IMG/VR virus record: IMGVR_UViG_3300025771_002941
Location: 1 to 47,961 of that record
Source of the DNA: a virus
Strand: one strand, 5' to 3'
Length of the DNA stretch: 47,961 nucleotides
Shown here: positions 33,938 to 41,803 of the stretch, in pieces
How positions within the stretch are numbered: position 1 is the first letter of the stretch
Layout of the letters: every line of letters begins with the position of its first letter
Notes under the pieces: model-generated
Database searches by the model: none
The model's input: the letters and a program-made list of their open reading frames with translations, nothing else
What the model was told of the DNA's origin: nothing
Position numbers and translations under genes: made by a program

Positions 33938-33944
33938 ATAAATA
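33938..33944 (+). promoter_or_regulatory. T4-late-like promoter box with leader
   Basis: TATAATAAATACTCGCATA then AGGAG; nearly identical to the box at 26054. Predicted +1 near 33950, leader 15 nt. It heads the block of seven proteins with a shared N-terminal signature. Confidence 0.6.
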
Positions 33945-33964: not shown

Positions 33965-35095
33965 ATGGATTTTAGAGAACTTATTAACAAAATTGATTCA
34001 ATCAATTCTGAGGCCAAAAAAGAGCCAGAAAGGCTTGCATTTGCTGACGCTATTAATCATGTAGAAGGTATAGTGTTTACACCACCAACATCGAGTGGTA
34101 TTAAGCAAAGCAGTGCTAACAACAGAGATTTTAAAGGTCAAGATATCAATGATCCTAAGGTAAAACTTGCCTTATTCCAAGCAGAATTAAAAACTTCTCC
34201 AGCAAGATTGCTAGGTGAAATTGCTTCACGCATTAAACCATCAAGTGATGCCCAAATGGACCTAAGTGGTCACATTGGTGCTATGTCAGATAAAATCGCA
34301 AATGGCACAGGCATGCTAAGTGCTCTAAACAACGAAGAAAAAGAACTTGCTATTGCTGTTATCAAAAAAGCATTAAGAGGCATGACACTTGAAAGAGATC
34401 CAGATCAATCAGAATACAAAGACGATGAAGACGACAGCATGGAAAGTTCTCTTCCATGGAAAAAATACGAAACAACTGAAATCCAAGATGACAAAGTTGA
34501 AGAAGGTGATAACATCTATCACTCATGTGTAAAATCATTCAAGCATGAAAAGTTTGGTGAAGGCACAGTACTACACGGCGAGCATACACTGAGCGAGTCA
34601 GGCGAAGTATCACACTACGATGCTAAATTTGTAAGAGAAGATGGTTCACAATTTATTGTTAGAAACATTCCAGTTGCTAACATGAAAGAGTGTGTTGTTG
34701 TAGAACACGGTCATCCAAAGAAAAAGAAAAAAGTTAAAGAAGAAGAGTCAGTTGAACAAGAAGATTGGTTTCAAGGACAAACAGCAGTTACATTAAGCGG
34801 TGATGAGTTTTATGAAACATTTGGTTGGATTGGCGAAAACGATGAAAACATCGAAGAAGCAGAATACCAAGGACGCACAGTAAAACTAAACAAGCCAATG
34901 CGTGGTGATGTTAAGAAGTTTAAAGTATACGTAAAAAATCCAAAAGGTAACGTTGTTAAAGTTAACTTTGGCGATCCTGACATGAAGATTAAAAAATCAA
35001 TTCCTGCTAGACGCAAAAGTTTCCGTGCTAGACATAATTGTGACACTCCAGGTCCAAAGACAAAAGCACGTTATTGGTCTTGTAAAAAGTGGTAA
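33965..35095 (+). CDS. Putative internal head protein with basic Cys/Trp tail (376 residues)
   Basis: The N-terminus MDFREL fits the signature of the next six genes. Residues 1-140 are helical. An acidic patch at about 140-175, a beta domain at 175-245, a Lys run (PKKKKKVKEE) near 245, and a C-terminal basic domain (about 300-376) follow. The tail ends in CDTPGPKTKARYWSCKKW, a Cys/Arg/Trp motif that also appears in varied form in the gene at 37486. It begins an apparent late operon. I suggest, as inference, a head-internal protein; no enzyme motif is seen. Confidence 0.6.
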   Translation: MDFRELINKIDSINSEAKKEPERLAFADAINHVEGIVFTPPTSSGIKQSSANNRDFKGQDINDPKVKLALFQAELKTSPARLLGEIASRIKPSSDAQMDLSGHIGAMSDKIANGTGMLSALNNEEKELAIAVIKKALRGMTLERDPDQSEYKDDEDDSMESSLPWKKYETTEIQDDKVEEGDNIYHSCVKSFKHEKFGEGTVLHGEHTLSESGEVSHYDAKFVREDGSQFIVRNIPVANMKECVVVEHGHPKKKKKVKEEESVEQEDWFQGQTAVTLSGDEFYETFGWIGENDENIEEAEYQGRTVKLNKPMRGDVKKFKVYVKNPKGNVVKVNFGDPDMKIKKSIPARRKSFRARHNCDTPGPKTKARYWSCKKW

Positions 35096-35101
35096 AATAT
35101 A

Positions 35102-35461
35102 ATGTTATTAAAAGAACTGTTTACATATGATGATGAAAATAACACGCCAAAATATGATCTAATAGATGATATTACGTTTTTCATTGACAACGACGATACC
35201 CTTCATAAAGAATACTTTCTACCAGCAGTACACGAATTAAAACGTAAAAAAGTTATCGATCGAAACAGTATCGATGAAATTGCTCCGGCATTTAAAAGTC
35301 TTGTAAAAAGAGGGTTTGAAATGTATAATGAAAAATACAAACCAACAGGAAAGACTGAACAAGTGTTTACGGAAAAATTATTATTAAGTATTGCTAGAAA
35401 ACTAGCAGAAAAACATTTAGATTACATCAAGTCTGGCCATTACGATCCTAAGGAGGCTTAA
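35102..35461 (+). CDS. Small protein with capsid-targeting-like N-terminus (119 residues)
   Basis: It starts MLLKELFTYDDE, which resembles the N-terminus of T4 Alt (MELITELFDED), an internal head protein. The rest is helical and charged, with no catalytic motif. Six bases separate it from the upstream gene, and the next ATG follows its stop directly. Likely part of the same late unit; packaging is inferred from the N-terminus only. Confidence 0.55.
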   Translation: MLLKELFTYDDENNTPKYDLIDDITFFIDNDDTLHKEYFLPAVHELKRKKVIDRNSIDEIAPAFKSLVKRGFEMYNEKYKPTGKTEQVFTEKLLLSIARKLAEKHLDYIKSGHYDPKEA

Positions 35462-36319
35462 ATGCTACTTAACGAACTGCTAGAAGCACAACCTAAAAAG
35501 ACGGCAGTTGTTGCTTGGGGCAGAATGAACCCTCCAACCATAGGACACCAAAAAGTTGTTGATACTGTAAAGCAGTACGCACAAAAGTTTTTAGGCGATC
35601 CTATTTTATTTTTAAGTAAATCACAAAAGCCTAAAACAGATCCTCTTTCATTTGCAGAAAAAGTTCACTTTGCTGGAGAAATGTTTAGTATCAAAATAGA
35701 TAGAAACACTTCTGTAAAAACAATTATTCAAATGTTTCAGCAACTACAAGGACAAGGATATGATAATGTAATTCTTGTTGCTGGCAGTGACAGGGTTCAA
35801 CAGTATCAAGATTTAATTGACAAATACAATAATAAACCAGATACCAAAGGCGAAATACCTTTTAAATTTGCTAACGCAAAAGTTGTAAGCAGTGGTGTGC
35901 GTGATCCTGATGAAGAAGGTGTTGCAGGCATGAGTGCTAGTAAACTCAGAGCATTTGCCGCTGATGGTGACTTTGAAAGTTTTAAACAAGGTGTTTCTGG
36001 TAACGAAACATTAGCAAAACAGATGTATAATAGAGTACGTCAAGGTATGGGGTTAGAAGTAACTGAAGTTTTTGGTTTTGCTACACGCAACGTACCACGC
36101 ACAACAATTAAAAAGAAATCTCTACCACAAGAATTAAGTGTTGCAGATAAAGTTAAAGCAAGAAGAGCCGCGGCGGCAAAAGGCGATAAAGATGCATTCA
36201 CAAACAAGTTTAAAAAAGAAGAAGCCGCAGGTGTTGGCATTATAACAAAACAAAATACAACCAAAGATGTTAACAAAGGCACATTGCGTAAAATGTTAAA
36301 AGGTTTTAAACTTATATAA
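35462..36319 (+). CDS. Nucleotidyltransferase (NMNAT/cytidylyltransferase-like) with basic tail
   Basis: The nucleotidyltransferase fold is marked by AWGRMNPPTIGH near residues 18-29 (the (H/T)xGH nucleotide-binding motif), an ILVAGSDRVQQY segment, and MSASKLR near residue 159 (ISSTxxR type). Such enzymes attach a nucleotide to a phosphorylated small molecule, for example NMN to NAD. The N-terminus MLLNELLEAQ matches the T4 gp22 head-scaffold propeptide style (LIAE-AQ), with possible cleavage after Glu8. The C-terminal 85 residues are a basic extension absent from typical NMNATs. It may be packaged and injected; substrate unknown. Confidence 0.75.
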   Translation: MLLNELLEAQPKKTAVVAWGRMNPPTIGHQKVVDTVKQYAQKFLGDPILFLSKSQKPKTDPLSFAEKVHFAGEMFSIKIDRNTSVKTIIQMFQQLQGQGYDNVILVAGSDRVQQYQDLIDKYNNKPDTKGEIPFKFANAKVVSSGVRDPDEEGVAGMSASKLRAFAADGDFESFKQGVSGNETLAKQMYNRVRQGMGLEVTEVFGFATRNVPRTTIKKKSLPQELSVADKVKARRAAAAKGDKDAFTNKFKKEEAAGVGIITKQNTTKDVNKGTLRKMLKGFKLI

Positions 36320-36531
36320 TGACGTTGGATGAACTAAAAAAATTAGCAGGTGTTAATGTAATTCGAAATGATAACGAACAGTCATTGGAAAATATTTCAC
36401 ATACAGCACAGGCACTAAAAGATAGAGAACGTAAACTTGGAATCAAACCTGGGGATCCAGAATGGTTTAAACTTTGGTTTAGTAGACCTTACATGACAGG
36501 TCCTGTGCAGTTTAGAGGACGCAAGAAATGA
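36319..36531 (+). CDS. Small basic protein (70 residues)
   Basis: It begins MTLDELKKLAG, in line with the block signature, has a helical middle and an Arg/Phe/Lys-rich end (VQFRGRKK). Start and stop overlap both neighbours by one to four bases. No domain recognised. The signature and co-translation suggest it travels with its neighbours. Confidence 0.55.
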   Translation: MTLDELKKLAGVNVIRNDNEQSLENISHTAQALKDRERKLGIKPGDPEWFKLWFSRPYMTGPVQFRGRKK

Positions 36532-37484
36532 GACTATACGAATTCGAAAGCAAAGTAAAATCAGAAGTATACATCGACATGGATGGTGTTCTTGTTGATT
36601 TTTTTGACGCTTGGGCGAAATTAATGGGCGAAAAAAGTTTTCGTGATATCAAAGATATTAACAAAGGCCTACAAGCAATTCGTGACACAGATGATTTTTG
36701 GTTAAAACTAAAACCTACTCCTAATGCTGGAAAACTATTGGCTTTGGTACGTAAACTTAAAGGTAGTTACACTATCCTAAGTTCACCTTTGGCTGACGAT
36801 CCTAGATCCGAACCACACAAGAGAATGTGGGTTGAAAAGTATCTCAAACAGTTTCCACCTAAGAAAGTAATCATCACCGGAAACAAAGCCAAGTATGCAC
36901 AGCAAAGTGATGGTACTCCGAACATTCTTATCGACGACTTTGGTCAAAACATTGACAAATGGAATGCCGCAGGAGGCATTGGAGTCAAACATAAAGATCA
37001 CAAGTTTGAAAGAACGCTACAAAGTCTAATGCAACATTTAAGCAAAGACGAAAAAGTTAAAGAAGATCAACTAAACGAAATTGCATGGGTTATTCCTGCT
37101 ATTGTTGGTGCATTAAGATTAGGTGCACCTATTATAAAAAAATTAATAACTTCAAAAGGTGCTAAACAAGTTGCTAAAACAGTTGCCAGAGGTGCCGGAA
37201 AAGGTACAGAGATTGTGGTAAAAAACCCAGGTAAGGCTTTGCTCGGATATGGTGCTTACGAAACTTTCAAAACATTAGAAGCATTTATGGAATGGTTAGA
37301 ACAATTAGACATTGTTGGACTAGCCAAAGAAATTGCTTTAGCACTCGGCAAAGTTGTTGTTAAGTATGGTATTCCTATTGCGGTTGTTATTGCTGTGTTG
37401 TTAGGAGGTTGGAAGTTAATTAAAACTCTTACCGGTACTGACGATCAACCGGAATCGCCGGAGGCGGGTCAAAGAGCATTTTAA
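36528..37484 (+). CDS. HAD phosphatase fused to a membrane-active C-terminal region
   Basis: Residues 14-170 form a HAD 5'-nucleotidase-like domain: DMDGVLVDF starts at Asp17 (Asp17 and Asp19 catalytic), ILSSP is motif II, and LIDDFGQN is motif IV. Residues 185-318 are unlike any HAD: two hydrophobic segments (185-207 and about 277-300) flank a basic amphipathic part (KGAKQVAKTVARGAGKG). The junction contains QLNE (181-184), an L-x-E site like T4 prohead protease cleavage sites, directly before the hydrophobic part. The N-terminus MRLYEFESK fits the block signature. It may be a packaged enzyme fused to a membrane-active peptide that could be released by processing. Confidence 0.75.
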   Translation: MRLYEFESKVKSEVYIDMDGVLVDFFDAWAKLMGEKSFRDIKDINKGLQAIRDTDDFWLKLKPTPNAGKLLALVRKLKGSYTILSSPLADDPRSEPHKRMWVEKYLKQFPPKKVIITGNKAKYAQQSDGTPNILIDDFGQNIDKWNAAGGIGVKHKDHKFERTLQSLMQHLSKDEKVKEDQLNEIAWVIPAIVGALRLGAPIIKKLITSKGAKQVAKTVARGAGKGTEIVVKNPGKALLGYGAYETFKTLEAFMEWLEQLDIVGLAKEIALALGKVVVKYGIPIAVVIAVLLGGWKLIKTLTGTDDQPESPEAGQRAF

Positions 37485-37485
37485 T

Positions 37486-38139
37486 ATGAGAGCAGTAGAA
37501 TTTCTTACAGAGAAATGGAGCAACAAATATAAACGCTCAATTAACTGCAACAATCCAAAAGGGTTTAGTCAGAAGGCGCATTGTGCTGGACGTAAGAAGA
37601 ATGAAGGTGCAGAAATTACTATGTGGACCAATCCTGAGTATCAAGGTGCTGACGTTGACGACAAATATTATAAAAAACAACCTGCGAAACTAATAGACGT
37701 ATCTAAACTTACACCTTTTGAGCCTGCTGACAAAATGGATGATGGGATCAGTGCCGCTAATATGGGTAAACTAGTAACAGCAATACAGGCAGGTGAAAAA
37801 ATTAATCCCGTTGTTATTACAAAACACCAAGGTAAATGGTTAATCATTGACGGGCATCATAGATACTTTGCACACCTAAAAGCAGGTGCAGATAAGATAC
37901 GTGTAGTAATCGCTGATCCAAAAGATTTAACTTGGCGTGATGATGTTCCAGAAAGTGTACAAGAAAACTTTGCTGATGGTAAAGTAAAAGGCAAAAGTAG
38001 ACCTGGGCGTGTCAAACGTGCAGGTGCTAGTTGTAAAGGATCTGTTACAGATCTGCGTAAACGTGCTAAAAATGCTAGTGGTGAGAAGGCTAAAATGTAT
38101 CATTGGTGCGCCAACATGAAAAGCGGTAGGAATAAATAA
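37486..38139 (+). CDS. ParB/Srx-like protein with basic, cysteine-bearing ends
   Basis: The central domain (about residues 65-150) has the ParB/sulfiredoxin core: INPVVITKHQGKWLIIDGHHRYFAHLKAG, whose GHHR part is the nucleotide-binding and catalytic motif. ParB-fold phage proteins may be nucleases or CTPases. The N-terminus MRAVEFLTEKW fits the block signature, with a possible L-T-E cleavage. It is followed by INCNNPKGFSQKAHCAGRK, a basic two-Cys motif. The C-terminus repeats a Cys/Arg/Lys-rich tail ending in MYHWCANMKSGR. The last stop overlaps a late-type box. Confidence 0.7.
   Translation: MRAVEFLTEKWSNKYKRSINCNNPKGFSQKAHCAGRKKNEGAEITMWTNPEYQGADVDDKYYKKQPAKLIDVSKLTPFEPADKMDDGISAANMGKLVTAIQAGEKINPVVITKHQGKWLIIDGHHRYFAHLKAGADKIRVVIADPKDLTWRDDVPESVQENFADGKVKGKSRPGRVKRAGASCKGSVTDLRKRAKNASGEKAKMYHWCANMKSGRNK
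38132..38138 (+). promoter_or_regulatory. T4-late-like promoter box, leaderless geometry
   Basis: AATAAATAA overlaps the stop of the ParB-like gene; the box ends five bases before the ATG at 38144, with no Shine-Dalgarno. Same geometry as at 1302, 2908 and 31380. Confidence 0.55.
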
Positions 38140-38143
38140 CATT

Positions 38144-39028
38144 ATGCGTATTAAAGATTTAGCAGAAGCAAAAAAACAAGAGCCAATTAAGGCACGTGAT
38201 CCTAACTGGCGTGATATGGAAGCATTGCGTAAAAGCGGTGCGGCAGGTTCACATGGTGATAAAACCAAGACCATTCCACGCAAAGAAAAATACAAAAAGA
38301 TTTCAATGGAAGATCAGTTTCAACAATACATGGAAGCAGACCCGGACACACTGGGTAAAATGAATGATAAAATGCGTGATGTTTTATCTAAAGTTGACAC
38401 TGATGACAAAGCACAAGCACAAGCGGCCAAAGACAAAGCAGAAGCCGATCGTCAAGCAAAAGCAAAAGAATTAGGTCCACAAGCAATGGACGATTATATT
38501 ACCAAACTTAAAAGACATGATTGGTCATATGATTACAGCGATGATCATAGTGTTTGGCAAAGAGGTGTTGCTGAAAGAGACGCAATTAGAAATTTACAAA
38601 AAGTTATTGACCCGGATTTTGAAGTGTACAACAAATATGCTCCAGATGGTTACAAAGTTAAGGTAAACAGAGAGTCAACACAAGAACAAGCATCAAAAAA
38701 ACAAATTGATAAGTTTCATAAAAAATTAGATAAACTGGTTCACAAGTCTTTTGGACATTCGTCGGACGAAAAGAAAAAAGAATCAAGTGACATTTTTAAA
38801 GCACTACAAACAATTGACGAAACAGCAACAGCAGGTTCTACAAGTGCAGGAAATATAGCAACAGTGGTAAGTCCGCATATTGCTATAGGTGATAAAAAGA
38901 CACGTAAAAAATATGGACTTATGGGAGGATTACCAAATCCACCAAAAGCCAAAGCACAAAAACCAACAGACAATGCACTGGACATGAAGGGTACTTCTAT
39001 TTTCGGTGGTACCTTAAAAAGGAGTTAA
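38144..39028 (+). CDS. Putative internal head protein (294 residues)
   Basis: The N-terminus MRIKDLAEAKKQ resembles the T4 IPIII targeting peptide (MKTYQEF-IAE-A type); cleavage after Glu8 would be the (L/I)-x-E rule. The body is a charged, Ala/Lys/Asp-rich helical protein. Near residue 225 a second possible site, I-D-E followed by TATAGSTSAGNIATVV, precedes a Gly/Pro-rich tail, a type of C-terminus seen in marine phage structural proteins. No enzyme motif. Late-type control and the signature suggest a head-internal or scaffold role. Confidence 0.6.
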   Translation: MRIKDLAEAKKQEPIKARDPNWRDMEALRKSGAAGSHGDKTKTIPRKEKYKKISMEDQFQQYMEADPDTLGKMNDKMRDVLSKVDTDDKAQAQAAKDKAEADRQAKAKELGPQAMDDYITKLKRHDWSYDYSDDHSVWQRGVAERDAIRNLQKVIDPDFEVYNKYAPDGYKVKVNRESTQEQASKKQIDKFHKKLDKLVHKSFGHSSDEKKKESSDIFKALQTIDETATAGSTSAGNIATVVSPHIAIGDKKTRKKYGLMGGLPNPPKAKAQKPTDNALDMKGTSIFGGTLKRS

Positions 39029-39029
39029 T

Positions 39030-39482
39030 ATGATTAAAGAAGACAAATATGATGAACCAGCAAGCAGTTACGAAGCAGAAATGCTGGACAATCAAATTGC
39101 TTTTATCAAATATGCCGCTGACGAAATTAAAGATCACGTACACAAAGGTGGCGTGTTTCCAGAATGGTTCCAGAACAAATTTAGTGGTGTACACGAACAA
39201 TTAAAAACACTTCACGCATACATGGAAGGTGAGCGTCAACAAGAAGCAGAACGCAAACGCATGATGAGCATGAAGGATATGAAAGATGATTATTTTGAAT
39301 CACTAGAACAAAAACTTAACGAGTCTAAAGATATTTGCAAAGAATGTGGTAAACCAAGTTATACTACATTGCCTGAAGAAAAGCAAAAAGGTGTTGACGG
39401 TAAAGTATGCTGGAAAGGCTACAAGCGTATGGGCACTAAAAAGAAAAACGGAAAAACAGTTGATAACTGTGTCAAAATGTAA
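39030..39482 (+). CDS. Unknown protein with a two-Cys basic C-terminus (150 residues)
   Basis: The N-terminal 90 residues are helical and acidic. The C-terminal 50 carry CKECG and a later C-x(24)-C arrangement ending in Lys-rich KKKNGKTVDNCVKM, which looks like a small zinc site. It does not share the N-terminal signature of the seven upstream genes, although it follows after one base with its own AAGGAG. Function unknown. Confidence 0.55.
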   Translation: MIKEDKYDEPASSYEAEMLDNQIAFIKYAADEIKDHVHKGGVFPEWFQNKFSGVHEQLKTLHAYMEGERQQEAERKRMMSMKDMKDDYFESLEQKLNESKDICKECGKPSYTTLPEEKQKGVDGKVCWKGYKRMGTKKKNGKTVDNCVKM

Positions 39483-39895: not shown

Positions 39896-40486
39896 ATGGC
39901 AGACTTACAAAAAATACTAAACACTTTTTCAAAACTAGGTATTGAAAATAAAGGTCTGGTTCCAGATAATCCTATGCAACAAAGTAGTGCTTTAAAAGAA
40001 CAATACGGAAATAATAACACAACAGATCCAAATGCACATGCACGTATGGTAGCAGAAAGCATTAAAGGAAAACATATTCCTGGTGTAAGTGATACTAGTG
40101 CAAGTGATATGGCCGCACTAGCAGGTATAGGTAAACCAACACAACGTCCGCAACCAGCAAATCCAAATCCTAATATATCAATAGCACCTACACAAACCGT
40201 GGACAAATGGGCAGAAGTTGATTCTAGATTAAACAACATTGAAACTAAACTTAACACTATTTTTGAAAGTATTCAAAAACTAACAGAAATTAGCGATGAA
40301 GATTATCGTGCTAAACGTAAAGCACTACAGGATATTCAAGCAGATCCTAACACAAACAAGGATCCTGAATTGAAAAAAGAACTAATGCGTCGAAAAGCAC
40401 AATTAGAAAAAGAACGCAAAGAAACAACCAAAGAATCACTTGAAAGAGGATTTGCCAGTTTTTTAAAAGAGTTGGAGGGTAAGTAA
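39896..40486 (+). CDS. Coiled-coil unknown protein (196 residues)
   Basis: An N-terminal helix precedes a Pro/Asn/Thr-rich linker (about 75-105). The C-terminal half is a long coiled coil: residues 108-130 and 138-190 show heptad-like spacing and many Lys/Glu. It could be an assembly chaperone, a scaffold or a tail protein. Its stop is followed directly by the ATG of the cysteine-rich peptide. No family recognised. Confidence 0.55.
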   Translation: MADLQKILNTFSKLGIENKGLVPDNPMQQSSALKEQYGNNNTTDPNAHARMVAESIKGKHIPGVSDTSASDMAALAGIGKPTQRPQPANPNPNISIAPTQTVDKWAEVDSRLNNIETKLNTIFESIQKLTEISDEDYRAKRKALQDIQADPNTNKDPELKKELMRRKAQLEKERKETTKESLERGFASFLKELEGK

Positions 40487-40765: not shown

Positions 40766-41803
40766 ATGAAAGTTACTAGCATTCCCGGCATGGGAAAATA
40801 CGGTGTTTATATTGATGGCTTAAAAGCCAAAGATATAGACGATGACCTATGGTTAGAAATAGGATCAATACATCTACAAAGCCTTGTAACAATTATACGT
40901 GATATAGATTTTACCATAGACGAATATTCTAAAAGGATTCTTCAATGGGGTAAACACGTTGATCTATTTGAAATTCATTTACAAAAAGAATACAATACCA
41001 AAGATGTAACAGCACTGTTACGTAATGATAATATTAACGGTAAACAAGTAAATCCTGAAGATAAAAAGTGGGTTGAAACTGTTTTGAATTACTGCGAAAC
41101 CGATGAAGTTATGCGTGTTAGCGGAATGAAAGATGCAAACGGAAAACCAATCGGTATGTTCGCAGAAGGCGAACTTCTTTGGCACAGTAATGAAAGTGCT
41201 AATCTAAATCATACTCCGGGTGTTAGTTTATTAGGTGGAACAGGAATGACCAAGAGTTGCACCGGATTTGTTACAACTGCTGAATGGTATGAAAATCAAA
41301 CAGAAAGTTTTAGAAGTGAACTTGATCAAATCATTATACAACATAGATTCACTCCGGGAAAAATAAATCCCGGATTAAGAGCAGAGCAGGATTATGTTGT
41401 TCAAAAAAATATGTGCCCTGAAGATAGTTATATACCTTTGGTTATCAAATCACCATATGGACACAAAGGACTGCATTATTCTGTAAACACGGTTTATGGA
41501 GTAAAAGATATGAAGCAAGAAGAAGCACAAAAACTTTTTGATTACATAAACAGCACACTGTTCACCGACGAATACATATATGATCACTGGTATCAAAACG
41601 ATAACGATTTATGTTTGTTTGATAATAGCATTACATTACACAGACGGTTGGGTAGCACAGATAATCGACTTGCTTATAGAATACAGTATGACTACGGAAA
41701 TCTTATAGAAAATTATAATCCATACATCTTAGAACCTTTTGCTAGTGAATATAGAAAAAATAAAGACAGCATCAATCAAGTATTATCTAGTAGAAATCAA
41801 TAA
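40766..41803 (+). CDS. TauD/TfdA-like Fe(II)/2-oxoglutarate dioxygenase, altered metal motif
   Basis: The fold is recognised from LLWHSNES at residues 138-144, followed by a GVSLLGG strand, and the distal LFDNSITLHRR with His292 and Arg301/Arg305 for 2-oxoglutarate. TauD-type enzymes hydroxylate small molecules with a His-x-Asp...His iron site. Here the Asp is replaced by Asn142 (HSN), although Glu143 follows directly. That change may weaken iron binding or change the chemistry. The 345-residue length is near TauD size plus an N-terminal addition. Substrate unknown; related 2OG oxygenases are frequent in marine phages. Confidence 0.65.
   Translation: MKVTSIPGMGKYGVYIDGLKAKDIDDDLWLEIGSIHLQSLVTIIRDIDFTIDEYSKRILQWGKHVDLFEIHLQKEYNTKDVTALLRNDNINGKQVNPEDKKWVETVLNYCETDEVMRVSGMKDANGKPIGMFAEGELLWHSNESANLNHTPGVSLLGGTGMTKSCTGFVTTAEWYENQTESFRSELDQIIIQHRFTPGKINPGLRAEQDYVVQKNMCPEDSYIPLVIKSPYGHKGLHYSVNTVYGVKDMKQEEAQKLFDYINSTLFTDEYIYDHWYQNDNDLCLFDNSITLHRRLGSTDNRLAYRIQYDYGNLIENYNPYILEPFASEYRKNKDSINQVLSSRNQ

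Follow-up and report, generated by a model that had tools for sequence, protein, structure and literature searches.

Why should seven consecutive genes with unrelated products open with nearly the same few residues? The question arises in IMG/VR virus record IMGVR_UViG_3300025771_002941, analysed here over its positions 1 to 47,961 (the window), a 48-kb piece of the genome of a marine T4-like myovirus that encodes a clamp loader, gp43, a gp10-like connector, tail fibres and TauD, and whose nearest annotated sequences belong to Kyanoviridae. The open reading frames (ORFs) beginning at 33965, 35102, 35462, 36319, 36528, 37486 and 38144, by which coordinates their products are named below, lie upstream of gp43 amid replication and metabolic genes. 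An earlier note, made from the letters alone, had read their common start as a signature like the capsid-targeting propeptides of T4. All seven ORFs were confirmed at these positions with the N-termini then described, and among some 65 greedily called genes of the window the pattern ^M.[AVLIMFYW].[ED][LF] is matched by these seven consecutive ORFs only. The answer that we consider quite likely is that the block is modular, is expressed late and encodes prohead cargo of a T4-like marine phage of Kyanoviridae type: by homology, the N-termini can be regarded as capsid-targeting propeptides of T4 type, and orthologues in cultured phages have canonical capsid-targeting sequences (CTSs) and are reported in purified virions.

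T4 supplies the rule by which such starts can be read. The first ten residues of the T4 internal protein IPIII are enough for packaging, with residues 4 and 7 involved in targeting and residues 8 and 10 in processing (PMC9026906), and the T-even internal proteins are diverse, the signal being their sole shared feature (PMC3012670). The annotation of IPII places its cut after residue 10; Alt, which starts MELITE/LF (a slash marks a cut site throughout), is cut at ITE-6 (PMC5694885). A review puts forward the CTS as a general packaging route in T4-like phages (PMC9026906). In a control, the pattern M-x(1-3)-[FYLIV]-x2-[FLIMV]-[LIMFV]-x-E selected 8 of the 282 T4 ORFs, including IPII, IPIII, Alt and gp24, which are known gp21 substrates. 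Two more T4 ORFs have CTS-like starts, MKTFKEFIKED and MLLEFKQFLYEA (KJ477686 18952-19116 and 114222-114452).

Orthologues in cultured cyanophages and their virions

Canonical CTSs open the orthologues of the 35462 cytidylyltransferase in S-SM1 (MKKFSAFLNEA), S-SCSM1 (MKSFLQFLKEA) and S-H34 (MKGFSNFLIEA), further starts being those of S-CREM2 (MKNFSSFLTEA), S-CRM01 (MKLFNQFFKEA) and P-SSM2 (MKSFSQFLTET); 378 records align to at least 80% of the S-SCSM1 protein. Proteome reports place the enzyme in CsCl-purified virions of S-SCSM1 (PMC9602691), S-CREM2 (PMC10665884) and S-SZBM1 (PMC9146016); purified S-SM1 virions are also reported to contain it (PMC3037559), as are those of S-CBWM1 according to a citation in PMC10665884. 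Seven genes of the same neighbourhood in S-SCSM1 (89, 90, 91, 92, 93, 95 and 97) are labelled virion proteins in GenBank.

The proteome of S-CREM2 allows the association to be counted. All four of its non-structural enzymes detected by mass spectrometry carry a CTS: the cytidylyltransferase, the S-adenosylmethionine (SAM) hydrolase (MKDFDSFLEE), the kinase (MKRFDAFLTEE) and the Cas9-like ORF12 (OR473000), in which the CTS-like LRFASFMAEAA is internal, at residues 17-27; ORF13 and ORF136 are also CTS-bearing. A tight CTS pattern is matched by 5 of the 26 detected non-structural proteins, namely the SAM hydrolase, the kinase, ORF13, ORF136 and the cytidylyltransferase, and by 1 of the 167 undetected ones (p = 2e-4), while a broad [LI]-x-E pattern separates the two groups weakly (6/26 virion versus 12/167 non-virion, p = 0.02). 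At its C-terminus, the ORF12 nuclease has the sequence KTFRDFL.

Elsewhere, S-CRM01 has six CTS-like genes in a row (g131, a kinase, g129, g128, where the sequence is internal, the cytidylyltransferase and g126), and the HAD-like block protein of Melnitz starts MKSIVEVTSINEE. CTS-bearing proteins were also observed in the gp16-gp17 interval of cyanophages, with MKTLKQFLKET and MKTFKQFMSES (GU071095 91376-91804; MK867354 44215-44535). A comparable set was noticed in a distant T4-like phage (L089 / G005:C1:87820-101149): M[DN]NF[DN]xxKYLAEG occurs four times as a start, a kinase-like protein begins MILLTELLKEA, a protein resembling nucleotidyltransferases has a start of LxE type, and gp22 begins MATNRNLLKEA.

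The start motif and a gp21-type protease in syntenic relatives

Relatives of 36528 and 38144 were gathered from viral contigs, and genes were called in 90 loci plus the window, the N-termini being made non-redundant on their first 12 residues before counting. The motif M-x-hydrophobic-x-[ED]-[LF] opens 66 of 175 block N-termini (38%) versus 13 of 448 other genes (3%), a contrast that is large even though its p value of ~1e-28 overstates the independence of sequences that are related. When residues 2-14 were shuffled, 1.3% of N-termini matched, and an internal Met is followed by the motif in 0.7% of cases. Of the block N-termini, 55% contain a gp21-type [LI]-x-E site whose P1 residue lies at 5-12, compared with 12% elsewhere and 18% after shuffling, and 33% contain an Alt-type site, compared with 4% elsewhere. 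One short start is common to unrelated mature domains (nucleotidyltransferase, HAD, ParB-like and Cys-module proteins), and basic paired-cysteine modules recur in varied combinations across the block proteins. The start MRAVEFL is kept in 37486 and in a protein of the related locus L002 while the domain behind it differs, the latter protein having no ParB domain.

The seven starts had been taken as a single class, but not all fit it: 33965 belongs to a class with MDFRxLINK and 36319 to a class resembling the scaffold tail. A clear second L-x-E site, as had been claimed for three of the proteins, is present in 35462 (MLLNELLE/A), 37486 (MRAVEFLTE/K) and 38144 (MRIKDLAE/A), at residues 6-9, while 35102, 36319 and 36528 have a single, Alt-type L-x-E at residues 3-5. 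The likeness to T4 propeptides holds in the sense of a T4-type CTS by homology, but the motif at residues 3-5 is nearer to Alt than to IPIII. Comparison across homologues, which the earlier note had proposed, gave a similarly divided result: Glu5 is invariant in the 35102 family (15 sequences) and nearly so in the nucleotidyltransferase family (14), but in the 33965 family, which starts MDFR-x-[LI]-I-[ND]-K (MDFRDI, MDFRTL, MDFRKL), position 5 does not stay acidic.

The prohead machinery was sought in the same lineage. A gp21-type (S77) protease is present in the syntenic relatives G001 (181.9 kb) and G004; a PF03420 profile search of the window gave no match, as expected for a fragment that excludes that region. 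MLLKEFFYF is the start of a small gene directly after the portal in G001, a place taken in T4 by prohead core genes; relatives of this gene in 15 loci retain the MLLKEFF start in all those inspected. In the window lineage, 76 of 76 gp23 sequences read L-x-E/ATAGATSAGNVAT where the T4 cut site lies; Glu at P1 and Leu at P3 never vary, P2 does, and the arm after the site consists of variants of ATAGATSAGN[VI]ATLNRVILP (76 sequences). Judged from these sequences, the L/I-x-E specificity of gp21 appears to hold in the window lineage.

The capsid-arm copy and the individual block proteins

The block features described in this section lie on the plus strand. The 294-residue product of 38144 (38144..39028), with the CTS MRIKDLAE/A, contains at residues 226-241 (38819..38866) a near-copy of the N-arm of mature gp23, with a gp21-like site ahead of it (TIDE/TATAGSTSAGNIATVV). 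The copy has a BLOSUM62 score of 58, whereas 1000 shuffled arms scored at most 43 over three proteomes; 38144 is the top arm match in the window, and in G001 and G002 the top matches other than gp23 are the corresponding block proteins. Among the family members listed from the window lineage, [ILV]-x-E usually precedes the copy, and in one relative the CTS leads directly into it (MKIKDITE/AASAGASSAGSIASVV). The gp23 arm of cyanophages differs, and it is that arm which their block or gp16-gp17 proteins copy: SSM2_108 (83% over 24 residues), S-CREM2 ORF160 (75% over 24), SSCSM1_97 (68% over 22) and S-SM1_197 (57% over 21), of which ORF160 and SSCSM1_97 appear in virion lists. The copies match the gp23 of their own lineage independently in S-SM2, S-CREM2 and S-SCSM1, and weakly in S-SM1; a search for such a copy in T4 and in the distant phage G005 found none. 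The copy may dock 38144 to the shell, an arrangement for phage internal proteins of which no description was found in the literature searched.

The block opens with a late-promoter-like ATAAATA at 33938..33944, a genuine match to NATAAATA, as had been claimed, and a second lies at 38132..38138, 5' of 38144. The window has 12 ATAAATA matches, 12 of 12 on the coding strand, and those before 33965 and 38144 are consistent with late transcription.

The first protein (33965..35095, 376 residues), of the N-terminal class MDFRxLINKxD, ends in a basic Cys module, RARHNCDTPGPKTKARYWSCKKW, at 35024-35092. A protein of phage C48C1 that shares this module (RARHNCANPGPKWKARYWSC) starts with a canonical CTS, MKKFKQYIDEG. 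The C-terminal region, with its RARHNCDxPGPKxKARYWSC module, also finds matches in Pelagibacter podoviruses and siphoviruses, there as small stand-alone proteins (MN698240 7622-7894; MT375529 44414-44653). The next gene (35102..35461) encodes 119 residues with the Alt-type start MLLKE/LF; homology of its family to cyanophage GC198 was considered and rejected by hhalign profile comparison. The product of 35462..36319, with the CTS MLLNELLEA, had been called a nucleotidyltransferase, and this was borne out by a match to phrog_3041 (E 8e-48) and an HxGH-type Rossmann motif. The motif G-R-x-N-P-P-T-x-G-H is invariant in 14 relatives, and an AlphaFold2 model resembles PDB structures of NMN/NaMN adenylyltransferases and of FAD synthetases. 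It is a predicted nucleotidyltransferase of the NMNAT/FAD synthetase fold group.

The 70-residue product of 36319..36531 has the N-terminus MTLDELKKLAGV, which begins with an ELKKLAG motif and is like the conserved C-terminal tail of the gp22 scaffold (IxxLAG[LI]). That tail is conserved in 75 of 75 sequences, and its LAG motif recurs in the family start [ED][LI]xxLAG[IV]; the resemblance is suggestive only, similar scores arising by chance elsewhere in the proteome. The HAD assignment of 36528..37484, which has the Alt-type start MRLYE/F and a hydrophobic C-terminal tail, was upheld as an NT5C-like phosphatase on a borderline PF06941 score (24.9 bits against a curated cut-off of 24.8), the best sequence match in the PDB being mitochondrial 5' nucleotidase (E 9e-4); in relatives a basic Cys module is fused in place of the tail. 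In 37486..38139 the CTS MRAVEFLTE/K is followed by a INCNNPKGFSQKAHCAGRK module (37540-37599), a ParB-like domain and a C-terminal Cys module. The ParB-like domain survives as a remote similarity, its scores falling under the curated cut-offs (PF02195 20.7 versus 26.3; TIGR00180 31 versus 58).

Two associated proteins follow. That of 39030..39482 has no CTS and carries a C-terminal CWKGYKRMGTKKKNGKTVDNC module; in its relatives, a similar CWKGYxxKGMKTMFG module is placed directly after MRISEIVEG. That of 39896..40486 has an FxxFLxE-like C-terminal motif (ERGFASFLKELEGK, 40442-40483) and ends in the CTS-like FASFLKELEGK, while the virion protein SSCSM1_93 ends in RTFKEFLEYIE; from these two ends, targeting may also be C-terminal. 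Beyond the block, a TauD-like dioxygenase is encoded at 40766-41803, and the protein at 1314-1868 matches a phage superoxide dismutase family.

Probable cargo, rival readings and known systems

If the block encodes prohead cargo, its short N-terminal CTSs would bind the gp22 scaffold core, and core binding would build the NMNAT/cytidylyltransferase-like, NT5C-like HAD, ParB-like and basic Cys-module proteins into the prohead. The gp21 protease would cut after [L/I]-x-E, the site being of Alt type (residues 3-5) or of internal-protein type (residues 8-9), and would free mature proteins that would stay among the DNA in the head and that may be delivered into the host; the internal gp21-like site and arm copy of 38144 would make shell docking possible. 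We infer core binding, cleavage and packaging in the window phage, and host delivery. Our analysis makes packaging of the block proteins highly probable and their cutting by gp21 probable, while their injection could fall either way.

Several observations weigh against this account. A second L-x-E site is missing in three of the seven window proteins, and the CTSs of the window lineage are shorter than that of IPIII and differently spaced. The tight cyanophage pattern was composed after some N-termini had been seen and is hence not blind, and in S-SCSM1 it is uninformative (1 of 48 listed virion proteins versus four non-virion ORFs). Presence in virions is known only from orthologues, and gp21, gp22 and gp23 of the window phage itself fall outside the fragment. 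The authors of cyanophage proteomes warn that virion enzymes could be carried over from the lysate (PMC10665884, PMC9602691).

The shared start might instead be a short amphipathic or charged sequence with another role, such as translation initiation, stability or docking to a membrane or complex, on proteins of related, jointly transcribed genes that act in the infected cell. The location of the block 5' of gp43, surrounded by genes for replication and metabolism, and the different N-termini of 33965 and 36319 would suit such a role, and tandem duplication could spread a start sequence. However, the downstream domains are unrelated, the start persists when the domain is swapped, the motif also occurs on the gene adjoining the portal, and orthologues with canonical CTSs are found in virions; we regard a role of this kind as quite improbable. 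Packaging as capsid or DNA-condensing structural parts that are not injected, their enzyme domains being inactive or confined to the head, would accord with the basic Cys modules on many block proteins and with the mimicry of the gp23 arm by 38144. This too seems unlikely, given that the nucleotidyltransferase keeps its catalytic motifs unchanged across 14 relatives and that the models T4 Alt and IPI are injected (PMC5694885, PMC3012670).

A narrower alternative concerns the arm copy, which could be a gp21 substrate or recognition sequence, comprising the P and P' sides, that has no part in shell docking. Most listed members of the window lineage have [ILV]-x-E before the copy, as gp23 does, but the copy in S-SCSM1_97 begins at the N-terminus of the protein without a cut site, no site lies ahead of that in S-CREM2 ORF160, and copies extend over 14-24 residues; we hold this alternative plausible but on the doubtful side. 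Within the cargo reading, our tentative proposal, which we place only just short of an even chance, is that in marine T4-like phages the cargo is addressed by several short prohead-derived signals, namely CTS-like propeptides, the arm copy with its cut site in the 38144 family and possibly a scaffold C-terminal tail in the 36319 family, with arm copies seating cargo in the shell lattice.

Cyanophage proteomics repeatedly finds enzymes in virions (NMNAT-like proteins, kinases, SAM hydrolase, a Cas9-like nuclease), but whether these are cargo or contamination was left undecided in the published accounts. The claim that the block represents undescribed packaged effectors stands in part: enzyme packaging in cyanophages had already been reported, while the targeting signal is absent from the passages of those accounts consulted. 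Both the CTS in T4 and virion enzymes in cyanophages were known. In the literature searched for CTS assignment in cyanophages, no paper linking the CTS to virion enzymes was found, nor were a run of tagged genes or a lineage-matched capsid-arm copy. If true, a readable T4-type targeting sequence would explain the enzymes in cyanophage particles, and injected effectors would become predictable from genome sequence in a very abundant phage group. A capsid-arm copy matched to the gp23 of its own lineage allows head location to be tested at the level of sequence, and it is a new candidate means of fixing cargo to the capsid.

Among known systems, T4 IPI, IPII and IPIII likewise combine a short N-terminal propeptide ending in [L/I]-x-E with diverse mature parts and host-directed cargo, and the cyanophage orthologues share their M-K-x-[FY]-x-x-F-[LI]-x-E layout. 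The tags of the window lineage, as known from sequence, differ from those of the T4 proteins in being 1-5 residues shorter and mostly of the form MRxxE[FL], and they belong to enzymes and Cys-module proteins encoded in a single contiguous block. T4 Alt, an injected ADP-ribosyltransferase cut at ITE-6 and LTE-619, resembles the block in its enzyme cargo and very short propeptide, the window Phi-x-E-[LF] at residues 3-6 (Phi, hydrophobic) matching I-T-E/L at 4-7 of Alt; the window enzymes are nevertheless unrelated to it, and the block has no ADP-ribosyltransferase. The ejected inner-body proteins of phiKZ-like giant phages are also cargo cut after Glu by a prohead protease, but their propeptides are much longer and the protease family and motif are different. 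Cyanophages S-SM1, S-SCSM1, S-CREM2, S-SZBM1 and S-CRM01 have virion-associated kinases and an orthologous virion cytidylyltransferase, the latter in a comparable gene block, while the window phage belongs to another lineage, whose gp23 arm differs from theirs.

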